A DNA stretch of 64,000 nucleotides from Luteimonas aquatica (GTDB lineage Bacteria; Pseudomonadota; Gammaproteobacteria; Xanthomonadales; Xanthomonadaceae). Within the stretch, counting starts at the first letter, position 1; every line of letters begins with the position of its first letter. Position numbers and translations under genes: made by a program. Below, piece by piece: positions 46,036 through 62,001 of the stretch. The notes under the pieces were generated by a model. The model did no database searches. It had not been told where the DNA came from and worked only from the letters and a program-made list of their open reading frames with translations. The stretch spans positions 816,381-880,380 of the forward strand of contig NZ_JALBFU010000001.1 in the NCBI RefSeq assembly GCF_022662575.1, read 5' to 3'.

Positions 46036-46674
46036 AGTGCCCCCAATACTTGGGAAGAAGTTGCCGAACCGGAAGACCTCTCGCAGGAGGCTGCCACCAA
46101 GCGACGGCAGGGCCTGTTCCGATTATGCGCCATTTTCCGGCACGCTATCACAAGGCCCGTGCATTCCGCGTGTCCCTGCCGTCCTCCCCCATGTCCCGAA
46201 AGGTTCGGCCCAAATCCTTGTCGTGAAAGGAATCGCCGCCCGCCTCCTCCGCGCGATGGTCTCTCCGGCCCGGGAGACATGCCGCCTCACCCTGCCGCCG
46301 TTCAGCCCAGCGTCCCCGCGGCGTGCAGGCGCCGCAAGGCATGTGCCGTTCATGAACCCATTCGCAACCGGCGCGTGCGGCAATTCATTCCCCGCGCCCG
46401 CATTCGCTTCCTTCGATCTTTTTTTCGCGCCGCGATAACGCCGGCCCCGGGATGGTGGTCGTGCAATGACACGCAATGCGAATTTGCCTCCAGGCCGGCC
46501 GAAACGACACATCCCGCGCTAGCGCGGCTGCGTCCTCGCCGAGGTTGCCCCCCGCGGGCGCTGCATCCTACGAGCCTGCCCCGGGACGCCAAGGCATCCA
46601 CCGCAGCGTGGCCTGCTCCACGCCAGGCACGCATCGATCGGCCGGACCCCACTCACCCACGACGGGAGCCAGAC
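46036..46674. other. 639-nt gap upstream of the basic-protein genes
   Basis: No gene can be supported. Open frames on both strands (for example 46016-46438) are Pro/Arg/Ala-rich, lack SD and conserved motifs, and look like by-products of high G+C. A T7 run near 46419-46425 has no stem before it. Promoters for the genes on both sides must lie here. Confidence 0.5.
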
Positions 46675-47178
46675 ATGCCCGAGAAGAAAACACTCGACCG
46701 CGCCAGGAAAGACAAGCGCGAAGGCAAATCGCCCAGTACGCAGGCCGGTGAATTCGTCCACGAGGAAATCGAACACGTCCGCGAGGGCAAGCATGGCGCC
46801 AAATCCACCAAGCAGGCGATCGCCATCGGCTTGTCGAAGGCGCGCCGCGCCGGCGTCAAGGTCGGCGCGCCGAAGAAAGGCAAGGCGTCGACCCGCAAGA
46901 AGGCGCAAAGCGACCTGAAGGCGGGCAAGAAGACCGCCAAGAAAAAAGCACCCTCGCGCAAGCGTTCCGCGGCCACGAAGAAGGCCCTGGAGCGGGCCGG
47001 AAGCAAGTCGGCTTCCAAGCGGGCGTTGTCGCGCCAGACCAAGTCCGCGGCCAGCAAGCGCAGCGCGAGCGAGCGCTCGGCGGCCGCCAAGAAAGCCGCC
47101 AGGACCAAGGGAGCGAAGGGACGTTCGGCTGCCGCCAAGAAAGCCGCCCGTACCCGCGCGAAGAAGAAAAGCAGCTGA
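46675..47178 (+). CDS. Histone-H1-like basic protein (DUF6496-type N-terminus)
   Basis: A 167-aa protein, roughly 40% Lys/Arg. N-terminal 55 residues (MPEKKTLDRARKDKREGKSPSTQAGEFVHEEIEHVREGKHGAKSTKQAIAIGLSKARRAG) are a conserved small domain, the part of DUF6496 proteins; the rest is an AlgP/H1-like tail with repeats such as RSAAAKKAARTKGAKG and RSAAAKKAARTRAKK. Expected to bind DNA and compact or shield the chromosome, perhaps in stationary phase. GGGAG is 6 nt before ATG 46675. A small charged protein gene follows by 57 nt. Confidence 0.85.
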   Translation: MPEKKTLDRARKDKREGKSPSTQAGEFVHEEIEHVREGKHGAKSTKQAIAIGLSKARRAGVKVGAPKKGKASTRKKAQSDLKAGKKTAKKKAPSRKRSAATKKALERAGSKSASKRALSRQTKSAASKRSASERSAAAKKAARTKGAKGRSAAAKKAARTRAKKKSS

Positions 47179-49195: not shown

Positions 49196-49915
49196 TCAGC
49201 GCACCGGGAAATCGTAGGCCGTCTCCGGGGACGGCTCCGGCGCCAGGGTGTAATGCCACCATTCGTCGGGATAGTTGCGAAACCCTTCCCGCTCCATCGC
49301 CGCCCGCAGCGCATGCCGGTTGCCGCGCTGCTCCGGCGTCGCGTTCGGGGAGTCCGTATGCGCGAGCTCGCCGAAGTAGTCGAAGCCGGTTCCCATGTCC
49401 ATCGGCATGCAGCTGCCGCCGGCATCGCATCGCAGCAGCGTCAGGTCGACGGTGGCGCCGCGGCTGTGCCCGGAACGCTCGGCGATGTACTGCGGCACCA
49501 GCCGGGATTTGTCGAGCTCGGGATAGAACTCGGCCTTGCGCGCCTGATCGCGCGCATCGCCCGCCCAGCGCATGAAATGCGCGACCGCCCGTACCGGGCG
49601 GTAGCAGTCGTAGATCAGCAACCGCCGGCCCGCCTCGCGCAAGGTCCGCTCCACCCTGGCCAGCGCCTGCGCGACCGGCCGCAGCAGATAGCACTCGGGC
49701 GCCTCGTAGCCTTCGATCCGGGTTCCGACGAAATTGTGGGTGCCGGCGTAGCGGATCTCCATGCGGATGTCGGGAACGAGCGCCCGCATGCTGGCGAATC
49801 CCGCCGCGTCGGCGGTGTCGGCCGCAGCGATCCGGGGCGCCCGCGCCTCGGGCGCGCTGGCGCAACCGGATAAGGCGATCGCGACAATCAACACCGCATC
49901 GGACAATCGCCTCAT
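49196..49915 (-). CDS. VanX-type D-alanyl-D-alanine dipeptidase, lipoprotein
   Basis: A 239-aa zinc dipeptidase of the M15D family. SGHSRGATVD (148-157, zinc ligands His150 and Asp157) and DEWWHY (Glu218 catalytic, His221 zinc ligand) are the diagnostic motifs; CYRPVRAVAHFMRWAGD is also typical. N-terminal lipobox ALSGC (Cys18) puts it in the envelope. Hydrolyses D-Ala-D-Ala, here probably to use it as nutrient. No vanH/vanA genes are present, so glycopeptide resistance is not implied. Its ATG overlaps the stop of the serine hydrolase (ATGA), showing coupling. Confidence 0.92.
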   Translation of the reverse strand: MRRLSDAVLIVAIALSGCASAPEARAPRIAAADTADAAGFASMRALVPDIRMEIRYAGTHNFVGTRIEGYEAPECYLLRPVAQALARVERTLREAGRRLLIYDCYRPVRAVAHFMRWAGDARDQARKAEFYPELDKSRLVPQYIAERSGHSRGATVDLTLLRCDAGGSCMPMDMGTGFDYFGELAHTDSPNATPEQRGNRHALRAAMEREGFRNYPDEWWHYTLAPEPSPETAYDFPVR

Positions 49916-51498
49916 TCGCCTGGCCCGCAGATCCCCGTCCGCTCGAGCGCCAGGTCCTCGAAATCGTTGCTGAAATCGCCATCCGGATCGACTTTCGACA
50001 TCTTCAGCGCCACGCCGCCGGCGGACGCCGCGAACTCCAGCCAGGCATCCACGTCCGGCCCGTCCTCGCCCCAGTGCACGCGCCAGCGTCCATCCGCGCT
50101 CCGGACTTCGCCCTTCACCCGCGGCGACTTGCGGGCCGAGAATTCGACTCCTGCCCCGGCCGGGCAGAGATCGACTTCGCCGAACCAGGGATCGCGATAG
50201 ACGCCGAGGAATTCGCGCAGCTCCGCGACGGTCGCCGGCCGGCCCGTCTCGGCCTTCGTGGCGTCGGATGCCGCGGCGCGCGCCCCCGGGGCGCGTGCTT
50301 CGGCATCGAGCAGGTCCGCGTAGTAAGCGACCGTTCTCTGCTGCTCCGGCGCCGTGAAGTGCTTGACCAGCACCTGATTGAGTACCGTCCTGGCCTCCTC
50401 GGCGTCGCCGTTGATCAGGATCACGAAGCCGACGTGCTTCTCCGGCAACAGCGTCACCGCCGAGTACATTCCCGAGAGCGTTCCGGTGTGCGAGACCTTC
50501 TGCGTGCCGTCGACATCCGCCAGGCGCCAGCCGTAGCCATAGGCGGAGTAATGGCTGCCGTCCCACTCGCGCATGCGCCTGGAGAGCGGCATGATCGTCT
50601 GCGCCGACCAGACCGCCTGGCGCTGCTCGGCCGACAGCCACGGCTTGCCGGCGACCAGGCCGGTCTTCTCCGGCGCCAGCCACATCGAGACCCACTTGAG
50701 CATGTCGTCGAGGTCGCAGCGGATGCCGCCGGCCGCCGCCATCGGAATGGCAGGGACCGTTTCCCCGTCGGTCCGCCCCGGCACGTAGCGCCCGTCCCTC
50801 AGGACATGCGGCTGCGCCACGTTGCCGACCTCGTCGCGCCGCCATTCGCCGACCTGGCAGCGCGTCATTCCCAGCGGCTCGAACAGCTCCTTGCGCACCA
50901 ATGCCTCGTAGGGCATCCCGCCCGCGGCGGCCGCCACCTCGCCAGCCACGATGTACAAGGTGTTGTCGTAGGCGTAGCGCGATCGGAAGCTGTACGCCGG
51001 CTTCAGGTAACGGAGCCCATGCAGCACGTCCTGGCGCGTGAACCGGTTCGGTTCGGGCCACAGCATCAGATCGCCGGCACCGGCGCCCAGGCCGCTGTTG
51101 TGGACGAGCAGGTCGCGCACCTGCAGCTCCCGCGTGACCCACGGGTCGTGCATCCGGAAATCCGGCAGATACTTGGTCACCGGATCGTCCCACTTCAGCT
51201 TGCCCGCATCGACCAGCCGCGCCAGCACCGCGGCGGTCATGGCCTTGGTGTTGGAGGCTATCTTGAACAGGGTTTCGTTATTGATGCCGGGACCGCCGCC
51301 GCCACGCTGCCGTCCAGTAGCGCGAATGTAAACAACCTCTCCGTTCTCGACAACGCCAACGGCAAGACCCGGCAGTTGATAACGGGTCATGGCATCATCG
51401 AAAGCGGAATCAACCGCTTCTTTCTGGGGTGCTGCGTTCGCAGTGAGGCATGCCAACAGCAACATTGCCGCCAGCATGGACAGGCGTCGAATATCCAC
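49912..51498 (-). CDS. Exported serine hydrolase, class-C beta-lactamase/DD-peptidase fold
   Basis: About 528 aa. Signal peptide core MLAAMLLLACLTANA. Catalytic motifs: SNTK (Ser82, Lys85), YDN (from Tyr177) and HTG (from His337), in the order of EstB/AmpC/DD-peptidases; a C-terminal 150-residue lipocalin-like beta domain follows (VAELREFLGVYRDPWFGEVDLCPAGAGVEFSARKSP). Probably a D-aminopeptidase, DD-peptidase or amidase acting on wall peptides, given VanX downstream and a TonB receptor upstream. Start uncertain: GTG 51498 gives the best signal peptide, GTG 51573 has an AAGG SD and follows the receptor stop by 8 nt, ATG 51477 is shortest. Confidence 0.87.
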   Translation of the reverse strand: MDIRRLSMLAAMLLLACLTANAAPQKEAVDSAFDDAMTRYQLPGLAVGVVENGEVVYIRATGRQRGGGGPGINNETLFKIASNTKAMTAAVLARLVDAGKLKWDDPVTKYLPDFRMHDPWVTRELQVRDLLVHNSGLGAGAGDLMLWPEPNRFTRQDVLHGLRYLKPAYSFRSRYAYDNTLYIVAGEVAAAAGGMPYEALVRKELFEPLGMTRCQVGEWRRDEVGNVAQPHVLRDGRYVPGRTDGETVPAIPMAAAGGIRCDLDDMLKWVSMWLAPEKTGLVAGKPWLSAEQRQAVWSAQTIMPLSRRMREWDGSHYSAYGYGWRLADVDGTQKVSHTGTLSGMYSAVTLLPEKHVGFVILINGDAEEARTVLNQVLVKHFTAPEQQRTVAYYADLLDAEARAPGARAAASDATKAETGRPATVAELREFLGVYRDPWFGEVDLCPAGAGVEFSARKSPRVKGEVRSADGRWRVHWGEDGPDVDAWLEFAASAGGVALKMSKVDPDGDFSNDFEDLALERTGICGPGE

Positions 51499-51581
51499 GG
51501 CCGCCGCCAATCGGCCGAGACCCGGCAACGATCCGTTGCCGGGAATTTCCGGGCCAATCAGCCAATCGCGCACGGCAGCCT

Positions 51582-54500
51582 TCAGAAGTTCCAGCTCACC
51601 ACCAACTGAGCATACCGAGGGGATTGGAACGACTGCCCATATCCGTACATTGGATTGAACGTGCCGATACTGTCTTGAGGCTGGAGGTCCTGATCCACAC
51701 CCAATGTCCGCTGCTGGTTGAGCACATTGTAAATAGCGAACTTGATTCGGAGGTCAGTGGGGATCGGCACCTTGTAGGCCAGGCTGAGATCCAGATTGTA
51801 GACCCATGGCGTCCTCCCCTCACCGCCCCTTCGGGAGTGCACGTAGACGCGCTCGTTCGAATAGGTCGAATTGCAGTTCTCCACGCAAATGTAGTAGCTG
51901 TGGAAATCCGTTGTATCAAAGGGGTTGCCTGCCCCAAACGCGGTGATCGGGGCGCCAGACTGGACGTTCAACGATGCCGCAGCCGTCAGATTTTCAGTGA
52001 CGGCATAGCTCCCGCGAAATTTGAACTGATGCCGGTGGTCATTTGCCAGATAACCCGACCCTCGATAATTGACCCAAGGGTTGTCGAAATTCTCTGTACG
52101 CCCGGTGTCAGCAAAGTCAGTATCAGAATTGACCGGCCCTTCGGCGTTACCTTTGTTGTAGGAGAGCGTGTAAGAGGCATTGAATCCCCACTTTTCATCC
52201 CATGCCCGATCGATCTGCAGCTCCAAGGCAGCATAGGAACGTTTCGGCTTACCCCATCCGCGCTGCCCGATGTACGTCATGATGGGATCACCATCGCCAT
52301 CGACGCCATCTTGACGGTACATCGCCCACCCCTCCCTGGCCGTGTCAACCGTGATCCATCCATCGGCACTCCCGTTGCAATCGGTATCCCCCCAGACCGT
52401 GACCTTCTTGCCAGGATTGGCCATCACGAACCCGACATACCCATCCTCGCCGCATGCACCCGTGGCGCTGATCTCCATATCATCGATCGCATTGTTCAGC
52501 TTGCGATAGGTCGCGCTTGCGCCCCAGGACCATTTCTCGTTGATCATGGTCTGGAATCCGAGGATCAATTCGTCTTGATAGACCGGATCCATGTCGCGAT
52601 CGACCTCCGAGCGCAGATCTCCCACCGTACCGTCACCCTGCGAGTTGTCGATGCCGCCAATCTGACCACCCAAGATCGGCAAGGCGTACGCTCGACCGTA
52701 ACTGGAGCTCAACAGGTCTTGATAGCCTAAAAATTCGTACCAACGGCGCTCGTCTAGGAACGCTCCGGCCTGCTTGATGTTGATGACGTTTGCGACCGGC
52801 AGGAAGTAACGACCGAGATTACCAAAAACCTTGGTTGCCCCATCCCCTTTCATATCCCAGGAGAAGCCAAATCTCGGCGCGTACATATCGTCCATTTCGA
52901 TATAACTTCTGCCGTCGCTGTCCTGATTGTCGAACGCTTCCTTGCGCAACCCGATGTTCAGCAGCAAATTCTCCGTGACCGACCAGTTGTCTTCGATATA
53001 GAGCGCAGAATTGATCGACTTGAAAGAACCCTGAACCTCGTTTTGTCGCGTGCGAACCACAAGGCCGCTTGCCGGAACCCGACCGCCATTGAGCGGCGCT
53101 CCGGGGGTGCGACGATATACGTCATAACGGATTCGACCCGGACCGGGATAGTAGCGATCCTGTTCCGACGTATTCTCTTCACGATCGGCGCCAAAGCGAA
53201 ACAGATGCGAGCCGAGGCTCCATTCGAAATCCAGCCTGGCCGCCTTACGCTTGTCCGTTGCCGTCACGACCTCGGTCGCCGTCGTGCAACCGCGATCCCC
53301 TTGCAAATCCTCAGGAACCCCATCGTCTAGAGAGCGATTGTCAAACACTCGGTTACATTCAACGTCATTTGCGCTACTTGCCGAACGCTCCCGGTCATTT
53401 TCGCCATAGAGCGCCTTCATGGAAAAATTATCAGTGAAGTTTCCGGTATAAGTGGCCGCCCAGTTCTTTCCTCCATTGTCCTGGACGAGTTGGTTGGTTT
53501 GGCCCTCCCGCACGCCAGAGTCGAAATCGTAATCGTAGACGTCCGTTACCGTATTGTTCTTGTCCGAAAACCCGAACAGCGACAAGGAGTGACGATCGGT
53601 AATCTGCCAATCGAGCTTACCGCCCCAGAAGGGATCGTTTGCTTGACCAGAATTGAACACACTACCGGCGTCGTTGGTGCTTCTCGGACGATAATCGCGC
53701 GCTTCGTACATAGCAAAAAAGAACAAGCGATCCTTGATGATCGGTCCGGACGCATAGGCGTTGAACTTGGCGCGGGTGTAGTCATCCTGATCGGCTGCGA
53801 TATAGCGTCCTCCTCCGCGCAAGTATCGATTTTTTGCCGCGGATTGCCATGCGCGAGGCTCGAAGGTCAACTCAACGCCGGATTTGAATTCGTTGCTGCC
53901 CGAGCGAGTGACCGCGTTGATCACGCCACCGGTACTACGTCCAAACTCGACAGAATAACCACCAGTCTTCACTTGGAATTCCTGGTAGAACGCAAATGGG
54001 ACCGAGGAGTAGCCGACCCTGTTGTAGAAATCGGTGACGTTGAGCCCATTGATGTAAACGGTGTTCTCGGCGACGGAGGATCCACCGAAAGACAACCCTT
54101 GCGCCCCCAATGAAGACTTGCCCTGCACCACGCCGGGCGCCAGCAGCGCCACTGATCCGACACTCTGATCTACGGGAAGTCGCGCGATTTCTTCGCGAGT
54201 CACATTGGTCGCGGATTCGGTGGACGTCACGTCCACAGCATTGATGACACGCGACCCCTTCACCTGGACAACATCCAGGTTGGTGGTTCCAGCTGATCCA
54301 ATGTTGACGGTAGTGGCATTGCCAAGCGTCACCGTGACAGGAACGGCATCGCCGACAGGCACTCCATCCTTGCTCGTCTGCAGCGTGTAACCGCCAGTCG
54401 GCAACAGGGCAAGGCGATAATTCCCCTGACTGTCGGCTGTCACGGTGCGCGTATAGCCCGTCTGCGGATTAACAATCGTGACCTGCGAACCCGGCTCGGC

Positions 54501-54623
54501 GCGGCCAACAATGGAGCCAGTTGTGTTCTGTGCCATGACAGGCATTGTGGTCAGCGATACCAGGCACAGCCCCATCGCCATGCAGAGCGCGCGCTTGCGC
54601 GGATTCGGTTTGTTGCTGCTCAT
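51582..54623 (-). CDS. TonB-dependent receptor, Oar-like (carboxypeptidase-regulatory N-domain)
   Basis: A 1013-aa outer-membrane receptor with signal peptide (about 1-31). Residues 35-115 are a carboxypeptidase-regulatory-like beta sandwich (GSIVGRAEPGSQVTIVNPQTGYTRTVTADSQGNYRLALLPTGGYTL), residues about 125-235 the plug (VNAVTRSG-type: GVINAVTRSGSNEFKSG), and the rest a barrel ending YAQLVVSWNF. Oar-like proteins often carry peptides or proteins. Base composition differs from all neighbours: 53341-53400 has 29 G+C in 60. SD GGGGAG, ATG 54623. Downstream serine hydrolase and VanX, upstream transglutaminase, on the same strand. Confidence 0.92.
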   Translation of the reverse strand: MSSNKPNPRKRALCMAMGLCLVSLTTMPVMAQNTTGSIVGRAEPGSQVTIVNPQTGYTRTVTADSQGNYRLALLPTGGYTLQTSKDGVPVGDAVPVTVTLGNATTVNIGSAGTTNLDVVQVKGSRVINAVDVTSTESATNVTREEIARLPVDQSVGSVALLAPGVVQGKSSLGAQGLSFGGSSVAENTVYINGLNVTDFYNRVGYSSVPFAFYQEFQVKTGGYSVEFGRSTGGVINAVTRSGSNEFKSGVELTFEPRAWQSAAKNRYLRGGGRYIAADQDDYTRAKFNAYASGPIIKDRLFFFAMYEARDYRPRSTNDAGSVFNSGQANDPFWGGKLDWQITDRHSLSLFGFSDKNNTVTDVYDYDFDSGVREGQTNQLVQDNGGKNWAATYTGNFTDNFSMKALYGENDRERSASSANDVECNRVFDNRSLDDGVPEDLQGDRGCTTATEVVTATDKRKAARLDFEWSLGSHLFRFGADREENTSEQDRYYPGPGRIRYDVYRRTPGAPLNGGRVPASGLVVRTRQNEVQGSFKSINSALYIEDNWSVTENLLLNIGLRKEAFDNQDSDGRSYIEMDDMYAPRFGFSWDMKGDGATKVFGNLGRYFLPVANVINIKQAGAFLDERRWYEFLGYQDLLSSSYGRAYALPILGGQIGGIDNSQGDGTVGDLRSEVDRDMDPVYQDELILGFQTMINEKWSWGASATYRKLNNAIDDMEISATGACGEDGYVGFVMANPGKKVTVWGDTDCNGSADGWITVDTAREGWAMYRQDGVDGDGDPIMTYIGQRGWGKPKRSYAALELQIDRAWDEKWGFNASYTLSYNKGNAEGPVNSDTDFADTGRTENFDNPWVNYRGSGYLANDHRHQFKFRGSYAVTENLTAAASLNVQSGAPITAFGAGNPFDTTDFHSYYICVENCNSTYSNERVYVHSRRGGEGRTPWVYNLDLSLAYKVPIPTDLRIKFAIYNVLNQQRTLGVDQDLQPQDSIGTFNPMYGYGQSFQSPRYAQLVVSWNF

Positions 54624-54686
54624 GACGCTCTCCCCGTCGATGCCCTAAATGATGATGGCGCCGGCAAGCCGCCGGCGGAATGTCGC

Positions 54687-56216
54687 TCAGCGCTTCCCTT
54701 CCCCGCCCGCGCCGTCGCCCGGGGGCGGCAGCATCTTCCAGGCGAAGTGATAGTCCCACTGGTCGAAGTACAGGTTGCCGCCGCGCCACTCGGCCTCGCC
54801 GCGCTGCAGGTCGACCGTTTCCGAGCGCTCGAAGCGCTTGGGCGGGACGAAGTCGCGGCCGTAGTCGTCGTTGAAGGCGATGCGGTAGGCGTCGAAGCCG
54901 CCCAGGTAGAAGTTCTCGACGGCGCGGCTTTCGGCCGAGCCGTCGCCGTGCAGCCTGCCGAAGGTGACGTCCATCGGCACCCAGCCGTACGGGGCCAGGT
55001 ACAGCCAGCCCCAGTCGTGCATGTTGTCGTAGCCGCCGTCGGAATAGATCCATCCCGACTGCCACCTGGCCGGGATGCCGTTCATGCGCAGCAGGGTGAT
55101 CAGCAGCAGCGTCTGCTGCCCGCAGTCGCCGTGGCCGGCATGCAGGGTGTAGTCGCCGATGTTGCTGATGGTGGAGTACTCGCGCGCGCCGGCCCAGGGG
55201 ATGCGGTCGACGGCGTCGAAGAGCTTGCGCGCGATGCGGTAGGGGTTCTTCTCATCGCCCACCGCCTGCGCGGAATACAGGCGCATGACGTCGGTGAAGA
55301 CCACGTGCGGCGGGCGCTCGGCCAGGTACGGCGCGAGCTCGGGCGTGATCTTCGCGGGAACGACCTTCTCGGGATCGATGTCGACGTACTGGCCGTAGAC
55401 GGTCAGCTCGTAGGTGATCGAGAACGCCGTAGGCTGTCCCTTGCGCGCCGGCTTCTCCAGATACACGGTGCGCTGGAGGGCGGACTCCGGGGCGATCCGG
55501 TGCCGCGCCGGCTCGCTGGTCAGGAAGCGGAGATGTTCCTGCTGCCCCGGCAAGGCGCGCGGATACGGGATCCAGGCGCGCACCGTCTCGCCGGCCGGCA
55601 CCGCGTCCGCGTCCACGGTCAGCGACTGCGTCACCTGCAGCCGCCTCGGCGCGACATGGCGGCGCCCCTGCGCCAGCGCGGCATCGCGCACCTCGCTATG
55701 GTGCGGATTGGGCGACTCCATCGGGCCGTTGGCGTTGCCGAGCTTCGACAGCGCCGGATCGCGGCGCGCGGCGGCCTCCGGGCTGAGCCGGAACAGGTTC
55801 GAGGGCGCGCGGTTGAAGTACACGGTACGGCCGTCGATGGTCATGCGCTCGAACAGGCCGGCGGCGTTCCATCTGGCGAATTCGGCCTCGGTCAGGTCGG
55901 GGATCTGCTTGCGCACGCGCTCGCGCACGCCCTGTTCGTCGAGGCTGAAGTCCAGCAGGATGCGGCGCATGCGCTCGCGCTGGAAGGCGTAGTCGCGCTT
56001 CTTGGCCGGACTCACGGCCGGATCGCCCAAGGCGGCCGCGATCTGCGCTTCGGCGTCCTGGAAGCGGCCGGCGTCGACCGCCGCGATCACCTCCGGCAAC
56101 GGCGCGGCGGACTGCGCGGCGAAGCAGCCCAGGGCCACCGCCGCCAACAAGGCGGCCAGCCGGCGCCCACGCGCCGCGCCGGGCGATGCAGTCCGATTGG
56201 CCAAGGTGTGGTTCAC
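54687..56216 (-). CDS. Exported transglutaminase-like peptidase
   Basis: About 509 aa. Signal peptide core RRLAALLAAVALGCFAAQSA. The catalytic part is near the C-terminus: GHGDCGQQTLLLITLLRMNGIPARWQSGW with the nucleophile Cys, and NMHDWGWLYLAPYGWVPMDVTFG with His and Asp. An N-terminal helical part (about 40-150) and a beta-sandwich (TVDADAVPAGETVRAWIPYPRALPGQQEHLRFL) precede it. Such proteins are usually cysteine peptidases or amidases. The start GTG 56216 agrees with the predicted promoter; ATG 56294 would lie upstream of the predicted transcript start. First gene of the leftward set, 63 nt before the receptor. Confidence 0.82.
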   Translation of the reverse strand: MNHTLANRTASPGAARGRRLAALLAAVALGCFAAQSAAPLPEVIAAVDAGRFQDAEAQIAAALGDPAVSPAKKRDYAFQRERMRRILLDFSLDEQGVRERVRKQIPDLTEAEFARWNAAGLFERMTIDGRTVYFNRAPSNLFRLSPEAAARRDPALSKLGNANGPMESPNPHHSEVRDAALAQGRRHVAPRRLQVTQSLTVDADAVPAGETVRAWIPYPRALPGQQEHLRFLTSEPARHRIAPESALQRTVYLEKPARKGQPTAFSITYELTVYGQYVDIDPEKVVPAKITPELAPYLAERPPHVVFTDVMRLYSAQAVGDEKNPYRIARKLFDAVDRIPWAGAREYSTISNIGDYTLHAGHGDCGQQTLLLITLLRMNGIPARWQSGWIYSDGGYDNMHDWGWLYLAPYGWVPMDVTFGRLHGDGSAESRAVENFYLGGFDAYRIAFNDDYGRDFVPPKRFERSETVDLQRGEAEWRGGNLYFDQWDYHFAWKMLPPPGDGAGGEGKR

Positions 56217-56278
56217 GCCATTGCCGCGCCTAGTCGCCCCGTCATGACCGACCCACGGCCGGCACCCAATTCCCCTGT

Positions 56279-56356
56279 CACATGTGTTTAACATGCGCCC
56301 CCGCCATGGTCAATAATTTATTCCAAAAACTTGCAAGTTGAGAAATTTGTATTCCA
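56279..56356. promoter_or_regulatory. AT-rich divergent control region of the murein-peptide locus
   Basis: Contains an 8-bp palindrome CACATGTG (56279-56286), a perfect 12-bp palindrome AACTTGCAAGTT (56328-56339), and a direct repeat AATTT-(0-2 nt)-TATTCCA flanking it (56315-56325 and 56344-56356). The stretch is far more AT-rich than the surroundings. Candidate operator for the MurR/RpiR protein encoded at 59060. Confidence 0.6.
56285..56313 (-). promoter_or_regulatory. Promoter of the leftward murein-peptide genes
   Basis: On the minus strand TTGACC (56313-56308), 17-nt spacer, and TAAACA (56290-56285) with an extended TG two bases before it. Predicted start near 56278, about 60 nt before the GTG at 56216. 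Confidence 0.5.
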
Positions 56357-56494
56357 TCATGCGTCCCGACGCGTCGGCCGCGCCTGAGACGGGAGCCGCC
56401 GCGCCATCGGGGACAGTGCGTAGTGCGCGGCCGTTCATCCCTTCACAATGAACGGGCCACCATGCCTCCTTTCCTTCCGTACAGATCCGACGCC

Positions 56495-57904
56495 ATGAAT
56501 TCCGCATCCCGCAGGTCCCGATTCCCCCTCGCCGCCGCCCTCCTGGCGCTGTGCGCGGTCGCGTTCGCGCCGCTGCCCCCGGCGCACGCCGCCGGCGCTG
56601 CGACCGGAGTGGTGGGCGTGGACACCGCGCAATTGGACGCCGACTACTGGATCGCACGCCTGCCGCAGGCGAACAAGGTCGTCCTCGACCGCGGCGCCAT
56701 CGCCGCGCAGAACCGCAAGCTGCAGCAGAGCGATCCGTCCCTGTACAACATCGACGCCCTGCCCACCACGCTCGACGGCAAGCAGGTGGGCGGCTGGATC
56801 CGCAAGCTTTCGGCGCGCCCGTCGCGCACGCTGTACGACACCGCCGGCAAGGAGATCGCCAGGAAGACCGTCGACGACTGGCTCGACCGCCTCAACCTGC
56901 AGGCGATCCCCGAATCGCAGCCCACGCGCTACGGCCTGATCGTGCACCGCGCCGACCTGCGCACCTTCCCCACCACGCAGCGCGTGTTCAGCGCCCGCGG
57001 CGACACCGACATCGACCGCTTCCAGGAGACCGCCTTCTTCCCCGGCACGCCGGTGGCGATCGCGCACGAAAGCCGCGACGGCAAGTGGTGGTTCGTGGTC
57101 GGCACCTTCTACGCGGCCTGGGTCGAGAAGCAGGCCGTGGCCGAGGGCAGCAAGACCCAGGTGTTCAGCTACGTGCGCAAGGTGCCGTACCTGGTGGTCA
57201 CCGGCGCCACCGTGCGCACCACCTACACGCCCAACCTGCCGCAGGTCTCGGACCTGCAGCTCGACATGGGCATCCGGCTGCCGCTGCTGAAGGAATGGCC
57301 CGGCAACCAGAGCGTCAACGGCCAGGCCGCCTACGCCTCCTACGTGATCGAGCTGCCGGTGCGCAACGACGACGGTTCGCTGCGCTTCGCCCCCGCCCTG
57401 CTGCCGCGCACCGCGGACGTCTCGCCCGACTACCTGCCGCTGACCCAGGCCAACCTGCTGCGCCAGAGCTTCAAGTTCCTGGGCGAGCGCTACGGCTGGG
57501 GCAACGACTACGGCACGCGCGACTGCAGCAGTTTCGTGTCCGAGGTCTACCGCAGCCTGGGCGTGCAGCTGCCGCGCAACACCAGCGACCAGGGCGTGAG
57601 CCCGGCGCTGAACCGCCTCGCCTTCAAGCCCGGCGAGCGCGGCAAGCGCACGGCGGCGGTGAAGCAGCTGCAGGTGGGCGACCTGGTCTACATCCCCGGC
57701 CACGTGATGATGGTGATCGGCAACGACAACGGCATGCCCTACGTGATCCACGACACCAACGGCGGGGCCTGGCTCGACACGGCCGGCAAGCTGGTGCGCG
57801 GCGACCTCAACGGCGTCTCGGTCACGCCGCTGCCGCCGATGCGCGCCAGCCTGAAGCAGACCTACGTGGACCGCATGACCAACATCCAGCGCATCCGGCC
57901 ATAA
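56495..57904 (+). CDS. SH3-NlpC/P60 endopeptidase, gamma-D-glutamyl-diamino acid type
   Basis: A 469-aa exported protein (signal core PLAAALLALCAVAFAPLPPAHA). Order: N-terminal stabilising region (about 35-110), two bacterial SH3 domains (about 145-215 and 225-290) and an NlpC/P60 domain (about 320-460) with Cys344 in GTRDCSSFVSEVYRSLG, His403 in IPGHVMMVIG and a further His419 in VIHDTNGG. This layout matches YkfC-type enzymes that cut L-Ala-gamma-D-Glu-|-diamino acid from free murein peptides. The next gene, an L-Ala-D/L-Glu epimerase, uses the product, as in the Bacillus ykf operon. ATG 56495 gives the best signal; ATG 56462 is possible. Confidence 0.9.
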   Translation: MNSASRRSRFPLAAALLALCAVAFAPLPPAHAAGAATGVVGVDTAQLDADYWIARLPQANKVVLDRGAIAAQNRKLQQSDPSLYNIDALPTTLDGKQVGGWIRKLSARPSRTLYDTAGKEIARKTVDDWLDRLNLQAIPESQPTRYGLIVHRADLRTFPTTQRVFSARGDTDIDRFQETAFFPGTPVAIAHESRDGKWWFVVGTFYAAWVEKQAVAEGSKTQVFSYVRKVPYLVVTGATVRTTYTPNLPQVSDLQLDMGIRLPLLKEWPGNQSVNGQAAYASYVIELPVRNDDGSLRFAPALLPRTADVSPDYLPLTQANLLRQSFKFLGERYGWGNDYGTRDCSSFVSEVYRSLGVQLPRNTSDQGVSPALNRLAFKPGERGKRTAAVKQLQVGDLVYIPGHVMMVIGNDNGMPYVIHDTNGGAWLDTAGKLVRGDLNGVSVTPLPPMRASLKQTYVDRMTNIQRIRP

Positions 57905-57933
57905 GACGGTCGCAACACATCCAGGACGAACGC

Positions 57934-57951
57934 ATGAAGGCCTCGCCGTGA
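57934..57951 (+). CDS. Five-codon leader ORF coupled to the epimerase gene
   Basis: ATG AAG GCC TCG CCG TGA (57934-57951) has an AGGA-type SD about 7 nt upstream and its TGA overlaps the GTG start of the epimerase (GTGA). The AAGG inside it is at the right distance (7 nt) to serve as SD for the GTG. It may simply place ribosomes at the GTG. Confidence 0.4.
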   Translation: MKASP

Positions 57952-59045
57952 AAATCACCGACATCCGCTTCGGCATGCTGCGCGTGCCGCTGAAGACGCC
58001 CTTCAAGACGGCGCTGCGCACGGTGGAGACGGTGGAGGACATCGTGGTCAGCGTCCACACCGACAGCGGGCACGTCGGCTACGGCGAGGCCCCGGCCACG
58101 GCGGTGATCACCGGCGACACCCACGGCTCCATCATCGAGGCGATCCGCAAGTTCATCGCGCCGCGCCTGATCGGCGAGGACATCGCCAACCTCAACCGCA
58201 TCACCCGGCTCGTCCAGACCGCGCTGGAGCGCAACACCAGCGCCAAGGCCGCGGTCGAGATCGCGGTCTACGACCTGTGGGCGCAGCTCTACGAGGCGCC
58301 GCTGTACAAGATGCTCGGCGGCGGCGAACCGGTGATCACCACCGACATCACCATCAGCGTGGACCACATCGACAAGATGGTGGCCGATTCGCTGTCGGCG
58401 GTGGAGCGCGGCTTCGAGTCGCTGAAGATCAAGGTCGGCAAGGACATCGGCGTCGACATCGAGCGGGTCAAGGCGATCTACGCCGCCGTCGAGGGCCGGG
58501 CCCTGCTGCGCCTGGACGCCAACCAGGGCTGGACCGCCAAGCAGGCGGTCTACGCGGTGCAGACGCTGGAGGACGCCGGCGTGCGCCTGGAGCTGCTGGA
58601 GCAGCCGGTGAAGGCGCAGGACATCGACGGCCTGAAGTACGTCACCGACCGCGTGCACACCCCGGTGATGGCCGACGAGAGCGTGTTCGGCCCGCTGCAG
58701 GTCATCGACCTGATCAAGGCGCACGCCGCCGACATCATCAACATCAAGCTGATGAAGACCGGCGGCATCTCCAACGCGGTGCGCATCGCCGACATCGCCG
58801 GGCTGTACGGCGTGCAGTGCATGATCGGCTGCATGATCGAGACCAGCATCAGCGTGGCCGCCGCCGTGCACCTGGCGGTGGCGAAGTCGGACGTGATCAC
58901 CAAGGTCGACCTCGACGGCCCGTCGCTGTGCGCTTTCAACCCGGTGGACGGCGGCGTCAGCTTCAACGAATCGGAGATCTCGATCGGCGACGCGCCGGGC
59001 CTGGGCATCCGCGAGATCCGCGGGCTCGAGGCCATGACGGCCTGA
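57948..59045 (+). CDS. L-Ala-D/L-Glu (dipeptide) epimerase, enolase superfamily
   Basis: A 365-aa muconate-lactonising subgroup enzyme. Catalytic KxK pair Lys160/Lys162 (SLKIKVG), metal ligands Asp190 (RLDANQGW), Glu218 (LLEQPV) and Asp243 (MADES), and Lys267 (NIKLMKTGG) on the other face: complete for a 1,1-proton-transfer epimerase. Converts L-Ala-D-Glu from murein to L-Ala-L-Glu so that ordinary peptidases can use it (E. coli YcjG, B. subtilis YkfB). Other dipeptide specificity is possible. Starts with GTG, 44 nt after the NlpC/P60 gene. Confidence 0.93.
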   Translation: MKITDIRFGMLRVPLKTPFKTALRTVETVEDIVVSVHTDSGHVGYGEAPATAVITGDTHGSIIEAIRKFIAPRLIGEDIANLNRITRLVQTALERNTSAKAAVEIAVYDLWAQLYEAPLYKMLGGGEPVITTDITISVDHIDKMVADSLSAVERGFESLKIKVGKDIGVDIERVKAIYAAVEGRALLRLDANQGWTAKQAVYAVQTLEDAGVRLELLEQPVKAQDIDGLKYVTDRVHTPVMADESVFGPLQVIDLIKAHAADIINIKLMKTGGISNAVRIADIAGLYGVQCMIGCMIETSISVAAAVHLAVAKSDVITKVDLDGPSLCAFNPVDGGVSFNESEISIGDAPGLGIREIRGLEAMTA

Positions 59046-59059
59046 GCGCCGGCGCGGCG

Positions 59060-59911
59060 ATGTCACCGCTCCTGAAAATCCGCTCCCAGCGCGACCAGAT
59101 GTCGGCGATCGAGCGCCGCATCGCCGACTTCCTGCTCGAGAACGCCCACCTGCTGCGCGACTATTCCTCGCAGCAGCTCGCCAGCGCGCTCGGCATCAGC
59201 CAGTCGAGCGTGGTGAAGTTCAGCCAGAAGCTCGGCTACAAGGGCTATCCCGACCTCAAGTACTCGATCGGCGTGTCGGCCGCGCGCGGCGACGCGGGCG
59301 AGGAAGGCAACGGCGCCGCGCCGGACCCGAACGACACGCATCCGCACGCGGCGCTGGCCGGCGAACTCTGGCATGCCAAGGCGCGCGCCGAGGAGGAGAC
59401 GCGGCTGATCAACCCGCCTGAACGCATCGACGCCATCGCCGACGCCATTCGTAAGGCCGGCAAGGTGTTCGTTCTGGGCCAGGGACCGGATGGCATCGCC
59501 GCGCGCGCCTTCGCCATGAAGCTGTCGCTGCTCGGCATCCTCGCCGTGCATCATTTCGATCCCGCGCTGATGCCTTCCAGCATCTCCAGTGCCGGCGACG
59601 GCGACGTGCTGCTGGTGTTTTCGGAGCATGGCCGTCAGGCGGCGCTGTGCCAGGTGGCGCACCTGTTCCGGGAACACCACGGCCGCACCGTGGCGATCAC
59701 GCGCCATACGGCCAATCCGCTGCAGGCGCACGCCGATTTCTCGCTGCTGGTCTCCGCGCACGACGACCGCGCCCATATCGAACCGCTGCTCTACCAGTCC
59801 GCGCTGCAGCAGCTGCTCGACCTGATCTTCCTGCTGCTGTGCGAGGACGCGAAACACTTTGAGCAGCTCGGAATCAACCTCGAACGCATCCAGCCGATGC
59901 TGGATCACTGA
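59060..59911 (+). CDS. MurR/RpiR-family transcriptional regulator
   Basis: A 283-aa regulator: N-terminal RpiR helix-turn-helix (RIADFLLENAHLLRDYSSQQLASALGISQSSVVKFSQKLGYKGYPDLK, about 20-67) and C-terminal SIS domain (about 120-255; AIRKAGKVFVLGQGPDGIAARAFAMKLSLLGI) for a sugar phosphate or related ligand. MurR in E. coli senses MurNAc-6-phosphate. Its place 14 nt behind the epimerase and within a wall-recycling set suggests that it controls this locus, with the palindromes at 56.3 kb as likely target. No SD of note; probably coupled. Confidence 0.9.
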   Translation: MSPLLKIRSQRDQMSAIERRIADFLLENAHLLRDYSSQQLASALGISQSSVVKFSQKLGYKGYPDLKYSIGVSAARGDAGEEGNGAAPDPNDTHPHAALAGELWHAKARAEEETRLINPPERIDAIADAIRKAGKVFVLGQGPDGIAARAFAMKLSLLGILAVHHFDPALMPSSISSAGDGDVLLVFSEHGRQAALCQVAHLFREHHGRTVAITRHTANPLQAHADFSLLVSAHDDRAHIEPLLYQSALQQLLDLIFLLLCEDAKHFEQLGINLERIQPMLDH

Positions 59912-59917
59912 GCCCCG

Positions 59918-60712
59918 ATGAACCCGACATCCGCTTCAGCACGCCTCGCCTACGCCTGCCTTGCGATCGCCACGCTGGTACTGGCGGCGTGCGCGCACCG
60001 ACCGCCGAGGGCGGCTGGCGGCGACACGGCCGCCTGGAACAACGCCACCCAGATGATCGTGGTCGTCACCGCCGACTGGAACGCAAGCGGCGGCACGCTC
60101 CGCAACTACTCGAAAACGAAGAATGGCTGGAAGAAGGAAGGCGGTCCTATCCCCGTGACGATCGGGCGCAACGGCGCGGCCTGGGGTCTCGGCTTGCACC
60201 CGCAGCAAGCTCGGGACGGCGCGCCGATGAAGCGCGAAGGAGACGGACGCGCGCCGGCGGGCGTCTTCACGATCGACGGCGCCTTCGGCTACATCGAACA
60301 CCCCGATACCGCCCTGCCCTACCTGCAGATGCAGGCTACCAGCTGGTGCATTGACGTCCCCGATTCGCCGCTGTACAACCGCTTCGTCGATACGAAGACC
60401 GCAGGCGCTGCCGCTGCCAAGGGCTCCAGCGAACCGATGCGCCTGGATCTGCACAATCATGGCGACATGCGCTACAAGATCGGCTTCGTGATCGGGCACA
60501 ACCGCGAAGCCCGCACCGGCGCCGGCAGCTGCATCTTCGCGCACCTGTGGAAGGCGCCCGGCGAAGCCACCGCCGGCTGCACCGCGATGGACGAACCGAC
60601 GATGCAGCGCCTGTACGCCTGGCTGCGCCCGCAGGCGCATCCGGTGTTCGTGCTGCTGCCGCAAAACGAATACGATCGCCTCAAGACCGACTGGCAACTG
60701 CCGACCCTGTAG
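59918..60712 (+). CDS. YkuD-type L,D-transpeptidase-like lipoprotein
   Basis: A 264-aa lipoprotein (lipobox LAAC, Cys25). The catalytic region is IFAHLWKAPGEATAGCTAMDEPTMQRLYAWL with His209 and nucleophile Cys221 in TAGCTAM, the YkuD HxxX(14-17)[ST]xGC pattern. The N-terminal half (MIVVVTADWNASGGTLRNYSK, PIPVTIGRNGAAWGLGL, RAPAGVFTID) is the beta part of the same domain. Members form or cut 3-3 links, attach or release Lpp, or trim peptides; in this context LD-carboxypeptidase activity is an attractive reading. 6 nt after the MurR-like gene, so same operon. Confidence 0.88.
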   Translation: MNPTSASARLAYACLAIATLVLAACAHRPPRAAGGDTAAWNNATQMIVVVTADWNASGGTLRNYSKTKNGWKKEGGPIPVTIGRNGAAWGLGLHPQQARDGAPMKREGDGRAPAGVFTIDGAFGYIEHPDTALPYLQMQATSWCIDVPDSPLYNRFVDTKTAGAAAAKGSSEPMRLDLHNHGDMRYKIGFVIGHNREARTGAGSCIFAHLWKAPGEATAGCTAMDEPTMQRLYAWLRPQAHPVFVLLPQNEYDRLKTDWQLPTL

Positions 60713-60726
60713 GAGCGCACCGCACG

Positions 60727-62001
60727 ATGTCGATGACCACACGGGTACTGCTGGGGCTGTTCCTCGGCGCCGCGATCGGCCTGGGCCTGGCGATCTGGGC
60801 GCCGGAGACGGCCGGCGCCGCCGCCGATTTCGTCAAGCCCATCGGCCGCCTGTGGCTCAACGCCCTGCAGATGACCGTGGTGCCGCTGGTCGCCGCCCTG
60901 GTGGTGCTGGGCGTGAACACCGCCAGCGACGCGGCGGCCTCCGGCCGCGTGGCGCGCAACGCCATCGTGGTGTTCCTGGTGCTGCTCACCCTGGCCAGCG
61001 CGTTCGCCGCCTTCGTTGCGCCGCTGTTCCTGTCGCTGCTGCCGCACGACGCCGCCTCGGTGGCCGCCTTCCGCACGGCGATGGCGCCGGCGACGGCCAC
61101 CGCCGAGCCGACCACGCTCGGCGCCTCGATCGCGGCGATCATCCCCTCCAATGCGATTGCCGCCGCCGCGCAGAGCGCGATGCTGCCGCTGGTGGTGTTC
61201 TCGATGTTCTTCGGTTTCGGCCTGACCCGTATCGACGCCGGGCGCCGCGCGCGCATGCTGGAACTGGTGCAGGGCCTGGCCGACGTGATGATCGTGATCG
61301 TGCACTGGGTGCTGTGGGTGGCGCCGCTGGGCGTGTTCGCCCTGGTGCTGGCGGTCTGCGCCGAAGTGGGACTGAAGACGCTCGGCGCGCTGGGCGGCTA
61401 CATCCTGATGCAGTGCAGCTTGTACATCTCGGTGACGCTGATGCTGTACGTGGTGGCGCGCGTGGCCGGCGGCGAGCCGTTCAGGCGCTTCGCGCTGGCG
61501 ATCCTGCCTGCGCAGACCATCGCCGCCAGCACCCAGTCCTCGCTGGCCTCGCTGCCGGCGATGATCGACAGCGCGCGCGAACGCCTCGGCTACCCGCTGC
61601 ACGTCACCTCGCTGGTGCTGCCGATGGCGGTGTCGCTGTTCCGCATCACCAGCCCGATCCAGTACATGGGCGTGGCCGCGTTCGTGGCCTGGCTGTACGG
61701 CATCGAGGTGCCGACCATGCACCTGGTCGCCGGCATCGGCCTGGCGGTGATCATCAGCATGGGCTCGGTCGGCCTCCCCGGCCAGGTCAGCTTCATGTTC
61801 ACCAACATGCCGGTCACCCAGGCGATGGGGCTGCCGGTGGAACCGCTGGCGGTGCTGATGGCCGTGGACACGATCCCGGACGTGTTCGCCACCGTGGGCA
61901 ATGTCAGCGGCGGCCTGACCGCCACCAGCGTGGTGGCCGGACACGCCGGCGAAGGCGAGGAGCGCCCGCCCGCCGCCGCCGATGCCGCCGACACGGGCTG
62001 A
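60727..62001 (+). CDS. Dicarboxylate/amino acid:cation symporter (DAACS family)
   Basis: A 424-aa inner-membrane carrier of the GltP/DctA fold. Eight helices plus two hairpins are recognisable; signature regions are FVKPIGRLWLNALQMTVVPLVAALVVLGV, AQTIAASTQSSLASLPAMI (hairpin 1, serine-rich) and hairpin/TM8 around GSVGLPGQVSFMFTNMPV and MAVDTIPDVFATVGNVSGGLTATSVVA. Carries Glu, Asp or C4 acids with H+ or Na+. The position 14 nt after the transpeptidase-like gene suggests uptake of Glu (D or L) freed from wall peptides. ATG 60727; ATG 60733 possible. Confidence 0.92.
   Translation: MSMTTRVLLGLFLGAAIGLGLAIWAPETAGAAADFVKPIGRLWLNALQMTVVPLVAALVVLGVNTASDAAASGRVARNAIVVFLVLLTLASAFAAFVAPLFLSLLPHDAASVAAFRTAMAPATATAEPTTLGASIAAIIPSNAIAAAAQSAMLPLVVFSMFFGFGLTRIDAGRRARMLELVQGLADVMIVIVHWVLWVAPLGVFALVLAVCAEVGLKTLGALGGYILMQCSLYISVTLMLYVVARVAGGEPFRRFALAILPAQTIAASTQSSLASLPAMIDSARERLGYPLHVTSLVLPMAVSLFRITSPIQYMGVAAFVAWLYGIEVPTMHLVAGIGLAVIISMGSVGLPGQVSFMFTNMPVTQAMGLPVEPLAVLMAVDTIPDVFATVGNVSGGLTATSVVAGHAGEGEERPPAAADAADTG

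Follow-up and report, generated by a model that had tools for sequence, protein, structure and literature searches.

A conserved divergent gene cluster of Luteimonas aquatica and its relatives with a predicted RpiR operator and a likely role in murein stem-peptide catabolism

A stretch of 64,000 nucleotides from Luteimonas aquatica (contig NZ_JALBFU010000001.1, positions 816,381 to 880,380; here called the window) carries two divergent sets of genes at positions 49196-62001, which an earlier note had described as a system for the scavenging of murein peptides. Checks of the open reading frames and scans with Pfam and NCBIfam models confirmed the content, order and strands of the nine cluster genes given in that note. 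From the centre outward, the leftward arm encodes a transglutaminase-core peptidase, a TonB-dependent receptor, a serine hydrolase and an M15/VanX-type dipeptidase, and the rightward arm an NlpC/P60 peptidase, an epimerase, an RpiR-family regulator, a YkuD-type lipoprotein and a DAACS symporter. A conserved 15-bp element, GAATAAWTTATTGAC, is present between the arms and is newly described here. The nine genes form one conserved system whose arrangement is common in the family, and we consider it likely that the locus is a single RpiR-controlled system for the catabolism of murein stem peptides, diverging from a shared predicted operator region. The features are as follows.

49196-49915, minus strand: M15/VanX-type D-Ala-D-Ala dipeptidase, putative lipoprotein (lipobox by eye); PF01427, 136.3 bits
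49912-51477, minus strand: beta-lactamase-family serine hydrolase, possible DD-peptidase or D-aminopeptidase; PF00144, E 6.6e-62
51582-54623, minus strand: Oar-like TonB-dependent receptor; CarboxypepD_reg, Plug and OMP_b-brl_4 domains
54687-56216 (or to 56294), minus strand: transglutaminase-core cysteine peptidase, exported (by eye); PF01841, E 9.4e-16
56285-56313, minus strand: predicted leftward promoter, -35 TTGACC (56313-56308), -10 TAAACA (56290-56285), 17-bp spacer, TG extension; conserved blocks in 70 relatives
56309-56323, minus strand: predicted operator site 2, GAATAAATTATTGAC, overlapping the -35; 70 of 72 nonredundant intergenic regions
56342-56355, minus strand: predicted operator site 1, GGAATACAAATTTC (consensus GGAATANWTAWTTC); conserved block ~31 bp from site 2, start to start
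56495-57904 (ATG at 56462 also possible), plus strand: YkfC-like SH3 + NlpC/P60 peptidase, exported (by eye); PF12913, PF00877
57948-59045, plus strand: predicted L-Ala-D/L-Glu (dipeptide) epimerase, no signal peptide by eye; best PDB match 1jpm/1tkk
59060-59911, plus strand: RpiR-family regulator, HTH + SIS domains; PF01418, PF01380
59918-60712, plus strand: putative YkuD-type lipoprotein, pattern SCIFAH...TAGC; PF03734, 25.5 bits, cut-off 23.4
60727-62001, plus strand: divergent DAACS symporter, probably for neutral amino acids; PF00375, 248.8 bits, cut-off 27.9

The gaps within both arms were as short as had been claimed (6 to ~105 bases). Two pairs of genes had been said to have overlapping codons, but only one such pair was found, in which the ATG of the VanX-type gene (49915-49913) overlies the stop codon of the hydrolase gene (49914-49912). 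For the transglutaminase-like protein the GTG at 56216 is the probable start codon, since translation from the alternative ATG (56294) would begin upstream of the predicted -10. As judged by eye, signal peptides or lipoboxes were present on the five envelope enzymes and the receptor and absent from the epimerase and RpiR. The window genome is a 3.83-Mb assembly of 52 contigs, and its closest named relative by the DAACS protein is Luteimonas panaciterrae (L057; 89% identity).

Conservation of the cluster was examined in a sample of 198 genomes and 54 genera of the family. The epimerase was detected in 124 of these genomes and in 35 of the genera, with a patchy distribution within the genus (6 of 9 sampled members, window genome included). 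A total of 79 epimerase-centred loci, a few of them cut by contig ends, were taken from 78 of the 124 genomes and were picked to cover genera and not at random. Near the epimerase in these loci were NlpC (76 loci), RpiR (65), YkuD (62), the TonB receptor (61), the transglutaminase (58), the hydrolase (56), DAACS (40) and VanX (32), and the transglutaminase and NlpC genes were divergent in all 58 loci holding both. A control gene beyond the right end of the cluster, nfi, recurred in 3 of the 79 loci. The DAACS protein alone, used as query, gave 429 matches, and the best of these, 80 named loci, made up a second set, which included Luteimonas, Lysobacter, Stenotrophomonas, Pseudoxanthomonas, Vulcaniibacterium, Dyella, Rudaea and Rhodanobacter and partly shared genomes with the first set. 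NlpC was present in 73 of these 80 loci and an epimerase was nearby in 70. Among the ten loci without an epimerase, three had a short upstream sequence (L060, L098 and L130), and L107, with a full upstream flank, had YkuD and DAACS only. The other six genomes (L068, L074, L093, L136, L114 and L132), most of which also had NlpC or YkuD, gave no epimerase match genome-wide at E 1e-40 with a query that matches other genomes. One of them, Rudaea sp. 3F27F6 (L114), still had the transglutaminase, YkuD and DAACS genes together, there on one strand. Recurrence across the family indicated that the arrangement is more than chance. Conserved clustering in relatives, on which the earlier note had staked its reading, was thus observed, and the combination of genes that it had called unusual proved to be common in the family and not peculiar to the window genome.

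The region between the arms was compared in 72 nonredundant divergent intergenic regions. The element GAATAAWTTATTGAC was present in 70 of these with no more than two mismatches; all 70 had a match on the leftward strand, which was the best match in 69. Alignment on this element revealed an upstream site of the same pattern, GGAATANWTAWTTC, at a fixed spacing of ~31 bp from start to start, and a downstream TG-T-TACACA-like -10 sequence separated by a 17-bp spacer from a TTGAC inside the element. This combination of TTGAC and -10 indicates that the predicted promoter points left, and the position of site 2 over the leftward -35 is as expected for repression. An exact dyad, GGAATA-N2-TATTCC, was found in 5 of the 72 regions. 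A search by eye of the aligned conserved blocks did not find a rightward promoter. Within the window the element was the sole match at up to three mismatches (mean of 0.06 in shuffled sequences), and the whole genome contained one exact site and one with two mismatches. The latter, C24:350546, looks incidental and was set aside.

The presence of the element followed that of the RpiR gene. It was detected in 64 of the 65 epimerase loci with RpiR and in 1 of the 14 without. Where both the receptor and the transglutaminase were missing, all 4 loci with RpiR had the element and none of the 13 lacking RpiR did. Counted over all 149 NlpC loci (duplicates between the two sets included), it lay upstream of NlpC in 126 of the 129 that have RpiR and in 1 of the 20 that do not. 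None of these counts stands for independent events, as the epimerase tree shows only three changes of RpiR. The tracking of the RpiR gene by the element suggests that GAATAAWTTATTGAC is probably the operator of RpiR, a prediction at the level of sequence. Co-loss of RpiR and the receptor was also considered as independent evidence of control and was dropped; only three independent pairs of loci differ in RpiR, and the receptor changed along with it in one pair and was alike within each of the other two. The RpiR-less locus that carries the element, L019, is the second copy in genome G057, whose other copy, L018, has RpiR and lacks the receptor arm. As to the regulator itself, the label MurR/RpiR held for the RpiR family (PF01418 and PF01380), but the MurR equivalog cut-off was not reached (NF012026, 77.2 versus 408 bits). 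The earlier note had named a lack of co-regulation between the two arms as a refutation; its reading was not refuted on this score, as both arms adjoin a single conserved element whose presence goes with that of RpiR, in keeping with a predicted co-regulation.

These results bear on whether the two arms could be adjacent but functionally unrelated, the left one being a general Oar-receptor/peptidase set that handles scraps of protein and the right one a set for murein dipeptides. The left arm is indeed missing in some loci that keep the right arm, and the transglutaminase and receptor domains are not specific to murein. This explanation is nevertheless improbable given the divergent transglutaminase/NlpC pair in 58 of 58 loci, the single operator/promoter region at fixed spacing in 70 of 72 regions, and the grouping of the transglutaminase, YkuD and DAACS genes in the Rudaea genome even where the epimerase is absent.

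The central enzymes of the rightward arm had been named as a YkfC-type endopeptidase and an L-Ala-D/L-Glu epimerase, and both predicted identities were supported by domains, structural relatives and residues. The best PDB match of the epimerase was to the L-Ala-D/L-Glu epimerase 1jpm/1tkk (E 1.4e-102), which we take to be YkfB of Bacillus subtilis. Residues R24, K160, K162, D190, E218, D243, K267, D321 and D323 were invariant in an alignment of 10 sequences with identities down to 49%; these presumably represent the catalytic lysines, the metal ligands, Arg24 and the DxD (Asp321/Asp323) of L-Ala-D/L-Glu epimerases. With its FKTALRT block and DxD retained and an L-Ala-D/L-Glu epimerase as its nearest solved relative, the window protein is predicted to be an enzyme of the YkfB type with this activity. 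The NlpC/P60 protein combines an SH3 domain (PF12913) with the NlpC/P60 domain (PF00877), and its best PDB match is 3m1u, a "putative gamma-D-glutamyl-L-diamino acid endopeptidase" (E 7.2e-21); a YkfC-type cleavage site is predicted from relatives of that name. An action of the epimerase on other dipeptides, with the cluster digesting peptides that do not derive from murein, would agree with the failure to reach the NCBIfam equivalog cut-offs for L-Ala-D/L-Glu epimerases (NF041118, 264.6 versus 500 bits; NF011708, 120.2 versus 343 bits). Dipeptide epimerases of this superfamily have varied specificities. We give this alternative little credence, however, in view of the closest solved relative, the retained FKTALRT and DxD residues, and the similarity of the partner NlpC/P60 protein to a putative gamma-D-glutamyl-L-diamino acid endopeptidase.

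The M15 protein belongs to the family of VanX (PF01427) and has its active-site motifs, SGHSRGATVDLTL and EWWHY being aligned to those of VanX, 1r44, which was the sole PDB relative at E 0.001 (E 3e-42). Residues Cys366, His401 and Asp417 of the transglutaminase-like protein were invariant in 24 sequences, window included, and among solved structures its AlphaFold model (pLDDT 82) most resembled the putative cysteine protease 3isr (E 2.2e-13). The YkuD pattern SCIFAH...TAGC was invariant in 22 sequences, the PF03734 score was marginal, and a fold search returned nothing at E 0.001; its best hits, to Pgp2 and L,D-transpeptidases, were weak (E 0.038 at best). A PADLOC scan of the transglutaminase-like and YkuD proteins gave no match. 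The presence of VanX and beta-lactamase families raised the possibility of a response to cell wall antibiotics, in which the dipeptidase and hydrolase would counter glycopeptides or beta-lactams and the remaining proteins would salvage debris. This seems very improbable, as no VanH- or VanA-type partner was found among the nine cluster proteins scanned, the M15 protein did not reach the VanX equivalog cut-off (174.4 versus 320 bits, scored on a longer frame), and VanX was present in only 32 of the 79 loci.

The DAACS protein has the fold expected of the symporter named in the earlier note (PF00375), but a role as a glutamate/aspartate porter is unlikely, as the arginine that binds the substrate carboxylate has been lost. 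In an alignment of 120 relatives (103 distinct sequences), the position of this arginine in transmembrane helix 8 (TM8; R397 of GltPh) was occupied by Ala in 96, Cys in 13 and Ser in 11, and the TM8 Asp and Asn were invariant. The region of the canonical NMDGT motif in TM7 read R-x-x-SP in all 120, after Phe in 118. The invariant Arg, within residues 305-310 of the window protein, lies in the former cation-site region and might replace a sodium ion. The three paralogues in the same genome, and also GltP and TcyP of Escherichia coli, all have Arg at the TM8 position. The NMDGT region was less telling, since GltP and one paralogue have NLDGS/NLDGT and TcyP and the two other paralogues have GQNGC, KMDGC and NQNGT. 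The GltP equivalog cut-off was not reached (154.7 versus 638). An R397C substitution in GltPh is reported to abolish aspartate transport and to confer transport of serine and alanine (PMC5750217). These findings suggested that the DAACS protein is probably a neutral-amino-acid porter rather than a Glu/Asp porter, and uptake of alanine derived from VanX or carboxypeptidase activity is the simplest reading.

Replacement of this protein in related loci pointed in the same direction. In the class sample of 369 genomes, matches of this DAACS type at E 1e-70 or better were limited to 3 genomes, each of them a member of the window's family. The 79 epimerase loci contained DAACS in 40 cases, an APC permease in 23, both in none and neither in 16; the named locus L078 has both. 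A quickly built epimerase tree, many of whose forks are weak, requires at least 10 switches. For the APC protein of L078 the nearest solved structure is 5oqt, which we take to be the alanine-transporting ApcT. Transport of L-Ala-D-Glu by the DAACS protein was considered and dropped, because the loss of Arg397 to Ala/Cys/Ser, the APC swap and the persistence of DAACS in genomes without the epimerase fit a neutral amino acid better. A GNAT acetyltransferase gene was observed just before DAACS in L084 (9276-9875) and in L012, L074, L085, L101, L110 and L117. A gene of the FAD-dependent (flavin adenine dinucleotide) amino-acid oxidase family directly follows DAACS in L106, L118, L128 and L134 (Dyella, Rhodanobacter); its use as a sign of D-Ala utilization was dropped at a score of 18.7 versus a cut-off of 383 for D-amino acid dehydrogenase.

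The predicted export of NlpC and cytosolic location of the epimerase (by eye) imply that L-Ala-D-Glu must cross the membrane whole and hence needs a permease. The outline of the import scheme in the earlier note is retained, but that scheme had no step for the intact dipeptide. In 15 of the 79 epimerase loci the right arm opens with a gene for a DUF819 protein (PF05684, YjcL-like), which precedes NlpC or, in L018, stands immediately ahead of the epimerase. The operator was just upstream of DUF819 in 14 of these 15, the remaining locus, L024, having neither operator nor RpiR. Among the matches listed in the family search for the cluster type of DUF819, which scores lower (E 2.1e-77 to 2.4e-68), 17 of 19 lie near an epimerase; the other two, in G167 and G183, have no epimerase match and lie near VanX or NlpC, with DAACS. 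In the family, DUF819 of any type was present in 121 of 124 genomes with the epimerase versus 29 of 74 without, counts that ignore kinship, and most of these proteins, including that of the window genome, are of a more distant type encoded elsewhere in the genome. A PDB sequence search with the cluster type found nothing at E 0.01. DUF819 is reported to have a transporter fold of the CPA/AT group (PMC8396727).

Beyond the family, the class sample of 369 genomes contained 8 genomes with the epimerase, 16 with DUF819 and 3 with both, and in these three, from one gammaproteobacterial genus, the two genes adjoin. In L178, one of the three, they overlap by 4 bp beside an S13 carboxypeptidase and a lytic transglycosylase. 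In Fusobacterium vincentii NZ_CP084075, an epimerase gene (51% identity) is followed after 20 bp by DUF819 and, 7 bp further on, by a gene for a hydrolase of the class A beta-lactamase family. This 2.1-Mb record (NZ_CP084075.1, L195) is deposited as a plasmid, and its size suggests a chromosome. An M15 peptidase-DUF819 pair is reported in Neisseria meningitidis (PMC12671195), epimerase genes of bacterial origin in land plants (PMC3605383) and DUF819/yjcL genes in cotton (PMC6121227). Among the 12 genomes of the class search, five others gave epimerase-like matches (E 8.5e-71 to 3.1e-81). In two of the five the gene lies by DUF1611, which we take to be the D-Glu acetyltransferase of the DgcN-DgcA pathway, and these two were not counted as having the same enzyme; the remaining three are possible instances of it. 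These DUF1611 genes (L180, 8254-9378; L183, 6619-7674) perhaps belong to such a D-Glu pathway in other gammaproteobacteria.

We therefore tentatively propose, at somewhat less than even chances, that DUF819 imports L-Ala-D/L-Glu and functions together with the epimerase in no fewer than three separate lineages of bacteria, and perhaps also in land plants. Against this proposal, 64 of the 79 epimerase loci have no DUF819 nearby, and of the 16 genomes outside the family that carry DUF819, 13 gave no match to the epimerase at E 1e-70. Furthermore, E. coli is not among the control genomes with a PF05684 match, yet is reported to have the epimerase (PMC5808125), and no epimerase match was listed for the Vibrio record, the other of two DUF819 matches in the plasmid collection. 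In the literature searched, which excluded bioRxiv and included few subscription journals, we found neither an account of this cluster nor one in which DUF819 carries murein peptides.

In the mechanism that we propose, we infer the substrates, the direction of transport, and the binding and effector of RpiR. The TonB receptor would bring wall peptides into the periplasm. Trimming there would fall to the VanX-like dipeptidase, the serine hydrolase, the YkuD lipoprotein and the transglutaminase-like peptidase, and D-Ala would be one of the products set free. The NlpC/P60 enzyme, which is predicted to be exported, would cut between D-Glu and diaminopimelate to give free L-Ala-D-Glu, which would cross the inner membrane intact through DUF819 where the operon encodes it and otherwise through a porter outside the locus. 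The cytosolic epimerase would convert it to L-Ala-L-Glu, which ordinary dipeptidases can cleave, and the DAACS protein or its APC replacement would take up a neutral amino acid, most simply alanine. RpiR would bind two tandem sites, one over the leftward -35, and probably represses until a substrate or product of the pathway appears.

The genome provides a setting in which epimerization of the dipeptide may be useful. No match to the glutamate racemase MurI was found above the cut-off in the window genome (best, C3:63774-64178; 34.8 versus 146.65 bits). Xanthomonas oryzae is reported to make D-Glu on a nucleotide precursor through MurD2/MurL (PMC5808125), and the absent MurI match suggests that a similar route may be used here. 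Without a racemase, free D-Glu could not be returned to L-Glu in that way, so that an epimerase acting at the peptide level would aid recovery.

The source of the peptides can be argued in two ways. We infer scavenging from lysed neighbours rather than turnover of the cell's own wall, in which peptides shed by the cell into its periplasm would be salvaged and the receptor would serve another or a supporting purpose. Own-wall turnover would agree with the periplasmic or envelope-anchored appearance (by eye) of the hydrolytic enzymes and with 12 of the 79 loci that lack the receptor, transglutaminase, DUF819 and RpiR alike, 10 of which still have NlpC beside the epimerase. It is rather unlikely, however, as the receptor is present in 61 of 79 loci, in an arm flanked by the shared operator, and AmpG is present for muropeptide recycling. 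Several findings weigh against the proposed stem-peptide system as a whole. The sequence of the TonB receptor does not disclose its ligand, and many of the receptors that occupy its place in other loci share only 45 to 50% identity with that of the window. The cluster contains no murein-sugar gene, and AmpG (427.3 bits, cut-off 350) gives own-wall turnover another route. Sixteen loci have neither DAACS nor APC, and DAACS is kept in six genomes without an epimerase and is thus independent of it. To these are added the locus with RpiR and no element, the RpiR-less locus with one, the few changes of RpiR on the tree and the two of three pairs in which the receptor did not follow RpiR. Elsewhere in the window, an open reading frame at 46159-47178, with no Pfam match, ends in lysine/alanine-rich KKAART-type repeats resembling a histone H1-like tail.

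Overall, the locus resembles several known systems in part. In alphaproteobacteria, a GGAA-N6-TTCC palindrome is tied to IolR, an RpiR-family regulator (PMC2597717), and predicted site 1 is similar to it; the regulon differs, and the window has two 14-bp sites ~31 bp apart, one of them over a -35. The DAACS protein shares its fold family and the TM8 Asp and Asn with GltPh, GltP, TcyP and ASCT2 (SLC1/DAACS) and differs in having Ala/Cys/Ser for the TM8 Arg and R-x-x-SP with an invariant Arg in TM7. TcyP and two of the own-genome paralogues also depart from NMDGT but, unlike the window protein, keep the glycine and the TM8 Arg. The MpaA enzyme of E. coli is cytosolic and unrelated, uptake there goes through MppA/Opp, and we know of no receptor gene or shared operator of this kind in the ycjG region. 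The likeness to that region lies in the pairing of an L-Ala-D/L-Glu epimerase with a D-Glu-mesoDAP-cleaving enzyme, beside which it is reported to be encoded (PMC5808125). In Bacillus velezensis NZ_CP083716, an LD-carboxypeptidase, a dipeptide epimerase (49% identical to that of the window) and a C40 (NlpC/P60) peptidase lie beside a peptide importer, in what we take to be the dpp-ykf operon. No ABC importer is present among the nine cluster genes; the window has instead the TonB receptor, VanX-like dipeptidase, hydrolase, transglutaminase, predicted RpiR operator and DAACS porter, with APC or DUF819 porters in relatives. The locus would parallel the dpp-ykf pathway of Bacillus in Gram-negative bacteria, with an outer-membrane receptor, envelope peptidases, a regulator and a predicted operator of its own. 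It offers a possible function for DUF819, contains a DAACS subfamily with rewritten substrate- and cation-binding motifs, and has a predicted regulon that is testable with one DNA fragment.

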